A stretch of DNA of 64,000 nt. Source: Dechloromonas sp. ZY10. GTDB taxonomy: Bacteria; Pseudomonadota; Gammaproteobacteria; Burkholderiales; Rhodocyclaceae. The position numbers were made by a program, and so were the translations under genes. The notes under the pieces are model-generated. The model was not told where the DNA came from. It ran no database searches and saw only the letters and a program-made list of their open reading frames with translations. Location: the NCBI RefSeq assembly GCF_041378895.1, contig NZ_CP144212.1, forward strand, positions 2,837,501 through 2,901,500. The letters are read 5' to 3'. Positions 2,547 through 59,481 of this stretch are shown here, one piece after another. Every line of letters starts with the position of its first letter. Position 1 is the stretch's first letter.

Positions 2547-2635
2547 AAAAAAAACGCGGCTCGCTGAGCCGCGCTAAATCCACACCAAAGGAGGAGGGTG
2601 GAGGAGACAAATCTGAACCGAAGTCGGTTCGTACG
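2547..2635 (-). ncRNA. Candidate trans-acting small RNA with anti-Shine-Dalgarno motif
   Basis: Between the divergent rplM and OsmC-family genes the minus strand carries a complete small-RNA layout. A promoter ends at 2642. A 6-bp hairpin follows (2615-2620 with 2625-2630). Next comes an unpaired C/U-rich stretch CTCCTCCACCCTCCTCC (2606 down to 2590), with two CCTCC anti-Shine-Dalgarno cores. An intrinsic terminator closes it (stem 2555-2562/2566-2573, then eight T). No minus-strand gene lies upstream that this terminator could serve. The predicted length is about 89 nt. This resembles stress-induced or Hfq-binding RNAs with CCUCCUCC motifs described in other proteobacteria; the class and targets are inference. 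Confidence 0.6.
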
Positions 2636-2641
2636 CTTCGC

Positions 2642-2670
2642 ATTATGCCCAAGACCACGGCTTTGATCAA
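2642..2670 (-). promoter_or_regulatory. Sigma70-type promoter for the small RNA
   Basis: On the minus strand TTGATC (2665-2670) and CATAAT (2642-2647) are separated by exactly 17 bases. Transcription would start near 2635, just before the 5' hairpin of the candidate RNA. Confidence 0.6.
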
Positions 2671-2945: not shown

Positions 2946-3377
2946 ATGGAGTGCACAGTCAGATGGATGGGTAGCGACGCAGGAATGTCCTTTGTCGCCG
3001 AAACGGGAAGCGGCCACATGCTGGCCATGGATGGCGCACCTGAGGCTGGCGGCCGCAATCTAGCCCCACGCCCGATGGAAATGCTGCTGGCGGGAACCGG
3101 CGGATGCTCGGCATTTGACGTCGTACTGATTTTAAAAAAGGGGCGCCACCAGGTCACCGGCTGCGACGTGAGCCTGAAAGCGGAACGCGCCGACAGCGAT
3201 CCGAAAGTATTCACCAGGATCCATCTGCACTATCGCGTCAAAGGACGGCAACTGAAAGCAGAAGCTGTCGCCCGGGCAATCGAGTTATCGAAAGACAAAT
3301 ACTGCTCAGCCTCGATCATGCTGGGAGAAACAGCCGCCATCAGCTACGACTTCGAAATCATCGAAGAGGTGAGTTGA
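2946..3377 (+). CDS. OsmC family protein
   Basis: This 143-residue protein fits the OsmC/YhfA fold. It has the segment RPMEMLLAGTGGCSAFDVVLILKK near residues 41-64, with one conserved cysteine, and a second cysteine in SKDKYCSASIML near residue 120, the two positions that form the redox pair in OsmC/Ohr proteins. Family members reduce organic hydroperoxides, but for the YhfA-like branch the substrate is uncertain. The start is supported by GGGAG six bases before the ATG. It is transcribed away from the small-RNA candidate and looks monocistronic. Confidence 0.88.
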   Translation: MECTVRWMGSDAGMSFVAETGSGHMLAMDGAPEAGGRNLAPRPMEMLLAGTGGCSAFDVVLILKKGRHQVTGCDVSLKAERADSDPKVFTRIHLHYRVKGRQLKAEAVARAIELSKDKYCSASIMLGETAAISYDFEIIEEVS

Positions 3378-22274: not shown

Positions 22275-23491
<1,217 letters not shown>

Positions 23492-23508
<17 letters not shown>

Positions 23509-24175
23509 GTTTGACCGCAGCCGTTGCTGGGGGCGTTTTCGGCGCTGCCTGCCGAGGCTCAGGCAAAGGCATGTCGAGCCAGCCGGCAAGAACCTGTTCC
23601 GCCTCTTCGATCCCGGTCTTTTTCAGACTCGAAAACAACTGTGCCGAATACCGGCCGCCGTTGCTGCCTTCGGTCCAGGTGGCAATTTCCGCCCGCACCG
23701 CGCGCAATACCTTGGTCTGGTCCTGGCGGCTGAGCTTATCGGCCTTCGAGAGCAGGATATGCAGCGGTCGGCCAGTCGGCCGGAACCAGTCAATCATGCG
23801 CCGATCGAGATCGGTGAAAGGGCGCCGGATATCCATGATCAGTACCAAGCCGACCAATGGTCCGCGCCGGGTCAGATAGGGACCGATCAACCCTTCCCAT
23901 TGGGCACGAATTTCCTCGGGCGCCTTGGCAAAACCATATCCCGGGAGGTCGACGAAATACTTGCCTTCGGCCAGCGTGAAATAATTCAGGTGCTGCGTCC
24001 GCCCTGGCGTTTTACTGACGAAGGCGAGCCGCACACGGCCTGCCAGGGTGTTAATCGCCGAAGATTTGCCGGCATTCGAACGGCCAGCGAAAGCCACCTC
24101 GCTACGGGCGTCGGTAGGCAAGTCGCGCAGGTGCGCCACGGTGGTGTGAAAAACAGCTTTCTGGAACAAAGGCAT
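23492..24175 (-). CDS. engB: Ribosome-biogenesis GTPase EngB/YsxC
   Basis: This 227-residue TRAFAC GTPase acts in 50S assembly. G1 is GRSNAGKSS near residue 31; G2/G3 are in [11 protein letters not shown] and [14 protein letters not shown]4 is LSKADKLS. The Pro/Ala-rich tail is a common variable end. Its last codons overlap the terminator of the antisense small-RNA candidate. It is divergent from the cytochrome c4 gene. Confidence 0.96.
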
Positions 24176-45896: not shown

Positions 45897-46985
45897 TTAC
45901 TTGTGCGACTGCAGGAAGCGGTCCATCCGCATTTCGGCGACGCTGAACCAGGCATTCTGCGTCTTGCGGTACTTGTCCCACTCGGTGTAAATCTTCTTGA
46001 ACGCCGGGTTCTTGCCGGCCTCGTCGGCGTAAATCTGCTGCGCGGCCTTGTAGGCGGCGCCGAGGATTTCGTCGGAGAAGGCGTTGAGCTTGACACCGCT
46101 CTGCAGCAGCTTGGACAGGGCGATCGGGTTCTTGTGATCGTATTCGGCCATCATCGTGACGTTGGCCTCGTACGCAGCAGCCTGGAAAGCAGCCTGGTAT
46201 TCCTTCGGCAGCTTGTCCCATTCCTTCTTGTTGACGAAGAAGTGGATGACCGGGCCGGATTCCCAGAAGCCAGGGTAGTAGTAGTTCTTGGCGACCTTGT
46301 AGAAGCCGAGTTTTTCGTCATCGAACGGGCCGACCCATTCAGCAGCGTCGATAGTGCCTTTTTCCAGCGCCGGGTAGATGTCGCCACCGGCGATCTGCTG
46401 CGGCACCACGCCCAGTTCGGAGAAGACGGTGCCACCGAGACCGGCGATCCGCATCTTCACACCCTTGAGGTCAGCCACGGTCTTGACTTCCTTGCGCCAC
46501 CAGCCGCCCATCTGGGTACCGGTGTTGCCGCCGGCGAAGGAGACCACGTTGTAGTTGGCGTAGAACTCGTCGAGCAGCTTCTGGCCGCCGCCGTAGTAAA
46601 TCCAGGCGTTCATCTGGCGGGCATTCATGCCGAACGGTACGGCAGTGCCGAAACCGAAAGTCTTGTCCTTGCCGACGTAGTAGTAGGAGCAGGTGTGGCA
46701 GCACTCGACGGTGCCTTGCTGCACGGCGTCCAGCGCCTGCAGGCCGGGGACGATTTCGCCGCCGGGGAAGACACGGATGTCGAACTTGCCGCCGGTCATT
46801 TCGCGCAGGCGGTTGGCGAGCACGTCAGCGCCGCCGTAAATGGTGTCCAGGCTCTTCGGGAAGCTGGACGTCAGACGCCACTTGATGTTCGGCAGCGACT
46901 GCGCGATCGCCGGGGCGGCGACGGTAGCAGCAGCACCGGCAGCGGCGCCCAGCGAGGCTTTTTTCAGAAAATCACGACGTTGCAT
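45897..46985 (-). CDS. dctP: TRAP transporter substrate-binding protein DctP
   Basis: This 362-residue periplasmic protein has a Tat-like signal (MQRRDFLKKASLGAAAG) and the DctP fold with WRLTSSFPKSLDTIYGGAD, GVKMRIAGLGG and DAAEWVGPFDDEKLGFYKVAKNYYYPGFWESG, the last matching the TakP/alpha-keto-acid-type group. It is convergent with dctQM-dps. The substrate is not proved. Confidence 0.94.
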   Translation of the reverse strand: MQRRDFLKKASLGAAAGAAATVAAPAIAQSLPNIKWRLTSSFPKSLDTIYGGADVLANRLREMTGGKFDIRVFPGGEIVPGLQALDAVQQGTVECCHTCSYYYVGKDKTFGFGTAVPFGMNARQMNAWIYYGGGQKLLDEFYANYNVVSFAGGNTGTQMGGWWRKEVKTVADLKGVKMRIAGLGGTVFSELGVVPQQIAGGDIYPALEKGTIDAAEWVGPFDDEKLGFYKVAKNYYYPGFWESGPVIHFFVNKKEWDKLPKEYQAAFQAAAYEANVTMMAEYDHKNPIALSKLLQSGVKLNAFSDEILGAAYKAAQQIYADEAGKNPAFKKIYTEWDKYRKTQNAWFSVAEMRMDRFLQSHK

Positions 46986-47116
46986 GTTGTCTCCTCCAGT
47001 GTGATCGGTAACGTCAATGGTGACAAATTGATTCTAACTAAAGACAGAGTACAAACGAGTTGAGGAAAACCCTTATAGTCCGCTGCCCCGGGCCCTGGCG
47101 TCAATCACCCGGCCAC

Positions 47117-59365: not shown

Positions 59366-59481
59366 CGGCCAAAACCGCCGCTACGCGACCCTGAAGCAAT
59401 GCGCGACAGTACGCAGCGCGCCGCACAGGCAGCCACTTTGCCTTTAAAATTCACCCTTTGCCGCAACGCACAAAGCCGATC

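Follow-up and report, generated by a model that had tools for sequence, protein, structure and literature searches.

We identified a palindromic PhaR-type operator in the promoter of a small RNA (sRNA) gene of Dechloromonas sp. ZY10, within a 64-kb stretch of DNA that was analysed as a whole (hereafter, the window). The RNA belongs to Rfam family RF02278, a kind that is already catalogued, and the operator in its promoter is the new part. We consider it likely that this sRNA is transcribed from its own sigma-70 promoter under the control of PhaR and damps the translation of carbon uptake and catabolism genes, where we infer PhaR binding, repression and target regulation from the DNA. The function and control of RF02278 RNAs have been open since the family was named for its toxicity in E. 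coli, and the regulator of their accumulation was still given as unknown by Sass et al. 2017. Since the operator suggests PhaR as the regulator and PHB as the signal, and targets are predicted as well, the question of how RF02278 RNAs are controlled can now be tested.

Architecture and family membership of the small RNA

The features of the locus, together with one predicted target site elsewhere in the window, are as follows.

2011-2439, minus: rplM (ribosomal protein L13), an open reading frame; downstream neighbour, outside the sRNA transcript
2488-2517, minus: separate rplM-rpsI promoter, TTGACA - 18 nt - TAGAAT, matching 11/12 consensus positions and located past the sRNA terminator
2546-2609, minus: conserved core, the Rfam RF02278 match (62.8 bits)
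2547-2575, minus: intrinsic terminator, with a GC-rich stem at 2575-2553, eight T at 2554-2547, and compensatory changes in the stem
2547-2635, minus: predicted primary sRNA transcript of ~89 nt, placed from the promoter and terminator positions, with a putative start; for comparison, ncS27 measures 92 nt
2587-2596, minus: second CU-rich site CUCCUCCUUU, a hairpin loop (from the fold and unpaired probabilities)
2606-2590, minus: CU-rich tract CTCCTCCACCCTCCTCC, read from the letters
2600-2609, minus: 5′ seed UGUCUCCUCC, anti-Shine-Dalgarno, with UGUCUCC single-stranded (from seed conservation and accessibility)
2615-2630, minus: 5′ hairpin GAACCGACTTCGGTTC with GAACCG/CGGTTC arms (from the letters and the fold)
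2642-2670, minus: sRNA promoter, TTGATC - 17 nt - CATAAT, with the -35 box at 2670-2665 and the -10 box at 2647-2642
2677-2691, no strand assigned: perfect palindrome TTGTGCGATGCACAA, a PhaR-type operator directly upstream of the -35 box; the 21-nt matrix match spans 2674-2694
2832-2852, no strand assigned: second PhaR-type site AATTGCTGCAGCGCAGCAATC, between the sRNA promoter and osmC, found with two matrices
2946-3377, plus: divergent gene, an open reading frame and recurrent neighbour, whose product we take to be OsmC-like
46983-46997, minus: GGAGGAGACAACATG, a predicted target site where a TRAP DctP receptor gene (45897-46985, minus) starts, with a duplex energy of -21.6 kcal/mol

The sRNA promoter matches 9/12 consensus positions, and a CTTG(A/C) -35 box and an AT-rich -10 box are kept in position in the sRNA loci of relatives. 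The first-pass annotation had described a minus-strand promoter with a 17-base spacer, a 5′ hairpin and an intrinsic terminator with eight T, each of which is present as listed above. The stretch from 2637 to 2547 folds at -34.5 kcal/mol (z = -3.8), and 0/200 shuffles folded as well. The same annotation took the CU tract to be exposed, which calculated unpaired probabilities bear out for the 5′ UGUCUCC and the CUCCUCCUUU loop, both free of pairing, but not for the middle UCCACC, which pairs with GGUGUGGA.

The Rfam covariance model of RF02278 ('Betaproteobacteria toxic small RNA') matches the sRNA over its full length (1-64) at 62.8 bits, above the gathering threshold of 50 bits (E = 2.9e-10 over the whole 64-kb window), and the family's two-hairpin layout with a conserved 5′ UCUCCUCCA and a terminator is present. 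Matches to RF02278 occur in 58/61 genomes of the same taxonomic family and in 158/250 sampled genomes of the order, with the core TGTCTCCTCCACCCTCCTCCTTTGGTGTGGATT almost invariant across same-family loci and the seed TCTCCTC(C/T) kept in 134/138 loci. Among 20 divergent RF02278 members, 8/13 base pairs exhibit two-sided compensatory change. Two of the checks named in the first-pass annotation, an Rfam search and conservation across Rhodocyclales, came out in favour of the small RNA with anti-Shine-Dalgarno motifs that it had proposed. Homologues are expressed in Burkholderia and Bordetella, where transcripts were detected by dRNA-seq, Northern blot or RACE for B. cenocepacia (PMC5688073) and B. 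pertussis (PMC11722255), and CU-rich single-stranded sites in these relatives are predicted or shown to pair with ribosome-binding sites (PMC5688073, PMC11722255). Given this expression and pairing in relatives, the earlier reading holds, but for a kind of RNA that was already known. The known family, the rplM synteny, the second copy beside a phasin gene and the PhaR-type operator were absent from that annotation. Collectively, the sequence evidence supports a trans-acting anti-Shine-Dalgarno sRNA of family RF02278 as the predicted product of the locus.

Because the 5′ region is variable within the RF02278 family, we treat the 5′ hairpin as a removable leader that is probably taken off the primary transcript by processing. 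A conserved functional role of the hairpin was considered, since one same-genus copy keeps its shape, although the loop is larger there, but was rejected for this variability.

Two further observations concern sRNA genes more broadly. Positions 23426-23510 (plus strand) of the window match Rfam RF02837, anti-hemB RNA, with 76 bits against a cut-off of 49.5; this betaproteobacterial sRNA is likewise known and corresponds to ncS04 in Burkholderia. In a different genome, five RF02278 copies lie within ~3.5 kb (L200; G044:C1:3305000-3309600), four of them with an operator at exactly -36, a tandem expansion.

Operator-like motif and phaR co-occurrence

The palindrome TTGTGCGATGCACAA is the only perfect TTGTGCN3GCACAA in the 3.57-Mb genome, where this pattern with at most two mismatches is found at 97 places per strand vs. 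40 for the reversed control. Sites were scored with two independent matrices, one derived from sRNA promoters (consensus T-N-N-TGC-RNY-GCA-N-N-A, with AT-rich arms) and one built from 17 S. meliloti sequences, restricted to EMSA-efficient PhaR promoters (PMC12542648) and applied with a cut of p ≤ 0.02. The sites at 2674-2694 and 2832-2852 are the top two of the window in both, and the sRNA operator scores 18.4 with the S. meliloti matrix, in which EMSA-efficient sites span 13.5-25.8. The sRNA-derived matrix also picks up the genome's phaR promoter (17.9) and two phasin promoters (23.0 and 23.6), and a second RF02278 copy in this genome, adjoining a phasin gene, carries the PhaR-type site TGCTGCATTGCACAA. 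With phaR (PF07879), four phasins (Phasin_2) and three PhaC_N genes, the genome looks like that of a PHB maker.

The centre of the operator lies ~49 nt upstream of the predicted sRNA start, and the sites of phaP1 and phaP2, two repressed genes of S. meliloti, are listed at 47-75 nt from the start (PMC12542648). The spacing is comparable, and by this analogy the sign of regulation would be repression; as the operator stands upstream of the -35 box and not on it, PhaR could also activate the promoter or leave it unaffected.

Other PhaR-type sites were seen in the same genome. The strong palindrome at 2832-2852 shares the intergenic region with the sRNA promoter and precedes the divergent osmC-like gene, so this gene too may be part of the PHB regulon. 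The window's third-best site (59456-59476, scoring 14.1) is upstream of the start of a methionyl-tRNA-synthetase-like gene and may be a chance match. Two strong sites (23.2 and 20.1) precede a short uncharacterised gene starting MNAPKMLPWIARKAGISDELALKLWRRAASEAEY (L037, 1421-1518; G000:C1:2959451 region). Palindrome matches at L033-L036 lie inside genes and were set aside as probably due to chance.

Across genomes, with phaR status read from PF07879, the operator-like motif co-occurs with phaR. An exact TGCN3GCA within 150 nt upstream of the core is present at 58/72 phaR-positive vs. 5/37 phaR-negative loci (Fisher p = 1.2e-11; shuffle expectation 10% and 4%, respectively), and a leave-one-family-out matrix, built from the sRNA promoters of other families, parts the two groups of loci with an AUC of 0.96. 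Using the S. meliloti matrix, we found a site upstream of 90/101 phaR-positive vs. 2/37 phaR-negative RF02278 loci (AUC 0.965). At the orthologous rplM-linked locus, the site is present in 59/64 phaR-positive vs. 1/7 phaR-negative cases, and the lone phaR-negative case comes from an 85%-complete genome with a close relative that has phaR. The palindrome occurs at nearly all loci of the family, mostly ~80-120 nt ahead of the core in the rplM type and near -36 in the short type, and in named species 63/77 loci in which the 31-nt core is exact have a site, Bordetella, Achromobacter, Alcaligenes and Pandoraea among them. Genomes without phaR do not form one clade on the rplM tree (four changes by parsimony, at least two of them forced by well-supported branches), and with so few independent losses the co-occurrence is partly confounded by phylogeny.

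The sRNA could instead be an RF02278 anti-Shine-Dalgarno RNA under other control, such as growth phase, the stringent response or another regulator, with the palindrome inert or belonging to a different factor, a reading that we regard as unlikely. It draws on the finding that not every phaR-positive lineage has the operator, the exceptions being Burkholderia sensu stricto and Cupriavidus/Ralstonia: none of the B. cenocepacia, B. arboris, B. multivorans and Caballeronia copies examined has a good PhaR-type site, and the rplM-type copies of Cupriavidus/Ralstonia have degenerate sites only. Burkholderia, Caballeronia, Cupriavidus and Ralstonia presumably carry phaR. These exceptions suggest that PhaR control is widespread rather than universal. 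The retention of the sRNA in phaR-negative genomes under different promoters can be counted for other control, but that the promoters were replaced there at all argues against it, as do the split of phaR-positive from phaR-negative promoters by a matrix of tested PhaR sites and the occurrence of the same motif at the phaR and phasin genes of the Dechloromonas genome.

Individual genomes depart from the overall trend in different ways. One (G012, 96% complete) keeps the site with phaR not detectable by PF07879. In another (G052), phaR is not detectable, the operator is absent and the sRNA is degenerate, with two RF02278-like RNAs (L187, L188) that have neither the CTCCTCC seed (TGACCCTCCCTGACCC) nor an operator. 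RF02278 copies in a phaR-negative family (f34; L112, L113, L116 and L117) have a different strong promoter, with TTGACA and a conserved ATATTAGAAAAT..TAATAACGCTGAT stretch that is possibly the site of another regulator. Burkholderia copies (L326-L328) have in common GGGTTTTCCCTTAAATT(T/G)ACGTCTGT directly upstream of the core, which may be the 'common upstream motif' of the Burkholderia double-hairpin RNAs (Sass 2017, Fig. S3); equating that published motif with a PhaR site failed on the B. cenocepacia, B. arboris, B. multivorans and Caballeronia copies.

Neighbouring genes, predicted targets and the proposed circuit

The first-pass annotation saw no nearby gene, which was mistaken: on the same strand, rplM begins 108 bp past the T run and has a promoter of its own. 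The osmC-rplM neighbourhood of the sRNA recurs across Burkholderiales, with rplM near 71/138 RF02278 loci and osmC near 73/138. On account of the shared strand, the 108-bp distance and this synteny, the element could be read as a cis-acting leader or attenuator of the rplM-rpsI operon, its hairpins and terminator tuning ribosomal-protein expression. We consider this highly improbable and rejected it, as the near-perfect promoter TTGACA-18-TAGAAT (2517-2488) stands between the terminator and rplM, and many RF02278 copies, including the second one in Dechloromonas, are not near rplM. In addition, a strict match to a separate rplM promoter is present in 41/71 rplM-linked loci, and homologues have their own start sites and were detected as RNAs of 57-92 nt (PMC5688073).

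Targets of the sRNA were predicted by a pattern search of the genome for GGAGGAGA-N2-9-ATG, which returned 19 sites vs. 1 for the reversed control pattern, an enrichment that is only suggestive because strong Shine-Dalgarno sequences are expected before genes; complementarity between an anti-Shine-Dalgarno tract and such sequences is in part expected by construction. In 7/19 sites the match extends to GGAGGAGACA, which complements the conserved UGUCUCCUCC in full, and the genes concerned include FadD, DctP, two amino-acid-type receptors (Peripla_BP_6) and HpaD (3,4-dihydroxyphenylacetate 2,3-dioxygenase). Predicted duplexes of the sRNA with the best-matching sites have energies of -20.8 to -24.8 kcal/mol, vs. 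-7 to -13 kcal/mol for three generic sites. Uptake and catabolic genes are also what has been reported as targets of NcS27 and S17, in agreement with these predictions. It seems to us very doubtful that the sRNA is a general translation inhibitor or toxin hitting all Shine-Dalgarno-led mRNAs with no particular targets, a reading suggested by the naming of the family after its toxicity when cloned into E. coli (PMC4603805, PMC5688073). Against it stand the extended GACA complementarity beyond the Shine-Dalgarno core in those 7/19 sites, the near absence of an effect of S17 overexpression on E. coli growth (PMC11722255) and the substrate-specific effects of ncS27 described in a review (PMC10987360).

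For the PhaR-controlled sRNA that we favour, we propose the following circuit. Without PHB, the carbon-storage polymer, PhaR, a repressor that binds PHB granules, would sit on the palindrome by the -35 box and hold sRNA levels down. Once excess carbon has gone into PHB, the granules would titrate PhaR and the sRNA would be derepressed, and it would probably be trimmed to its core of ~65 nt. The two CU-rich single-stranded tracts could then base-pair with ribosome-binding sites of the GGAGGAGACA type on mRNAs for transporters and catabolism and block their translation, so that carbon storage would feed back negatively on carbon uptake. More broadly, there is a good chance that RF02278 RNAs across most PHB-making Betaproteobacteria form an arm of the PhaR regulon by which stored carbon shuts down uptake and catabolism, and that this arm was lost or rewired where phaR was lost and in a few lineages (Burkholderia sensu stricto, Cupriavidus/Ralstonia).

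Relation to known small RNAs and PhaR regulons

RF02278 RNAs of B. cenocepacia and Herbaspirillum (Hsnc59, 63, 86 and 107) have in common with the Dechloromonas sRNA a shared sequence, two hairpins, CU-rich anti-Shine-Dalgarno tracts and several copies per genome. Four are expressed in B. cenocepacia, namely ncS03, ncS05, ncS27/bdhR1 and ncS62 (PMC5688073), where glucose medium raises the level of the double-hairpin RNAs 4.3-8.0 fold (PMC5688073). The 92-nt ncS27 undergoes processing to a short form; growth slows when ncS27 is overproduced and speeds up when it is silenced, and its CU-rich loops are predicted to mask ribosome-binding sites (PMC5688073). The review cited above reports effects on phenylalanine/tyrosine catabolism and carbohydrate transport genes (PMC10987360). 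ncS27 sits between BCAL3348a and BCAL3349, and BCAL3348 is named as a ribosomal protein gene in the B. cenocepacia paper, so this locus may be the same as the rplM-linked locus of Dechloromonas. The Dechloromonas copy differs from a B. cenocepacia ncS62-like copy in having the PhaR-type palindrome by its -35 box.

In B. pertussis, the long form of S17 is processed by RNase E to the short S17S, the 5′ end of which is identical to RNAs across Betaproteobacteria, including Aromatoleum (PMC11722255). S17S directly represses BP2158, and many transporter genes, as well as regulators, are among its candidate targets (PMC11722255). S17 was studied through the Bvg mode with PhaR not mentioned (PMC11722255), and Bordetella genomospecies loci do carry the site. 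The Neisseria RNAs NmsRA/NmsRB (NgncR_162/163, RcoF) resemble the sRNA in a three-hairpin layout with a UCUCCUC tract, and their targets belong to central metabolism and amino-acid uptake (PMC9973317, PMC5362039). Membership of the sRNA in the NmsR family (RF02877) was rejected, its score of 27.7 bits (E = 0.018) being below the 52-bit threshold.

No report of PhaR control of RF02278 RNAs was found in the searchable literature, the coverage of which ends short of Sass et al. 2019 (NcS27) and Kimelman et al. 2012, so that priority is not certain. On the side of the regulator, Herbaspirillum PhbF (PhaR) was footprinted on TG[N]TGC[N]3GCAA and represses a phasin gene and itself (PMC3206438); the sRNA palindrome resembles this motif, and that study covered PHB-related promoters only (PMC3206438). 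In S. meliloti, the PhaR motif is WNWD2NYGCRNYGCRNH2WNW, and PhaR (AniA) represses the sRNA MmgR via a YGCRNYGCR palindrome (PMC12542648). As an sRNA under PhaR, MmgR is the closest functional parallel, although it is an unrelated RNA from another bacterial class, and it acts on PHB accumulation, whereas the predicted targets of the Dechloromonas sRNA belong to uptake and catabolism.
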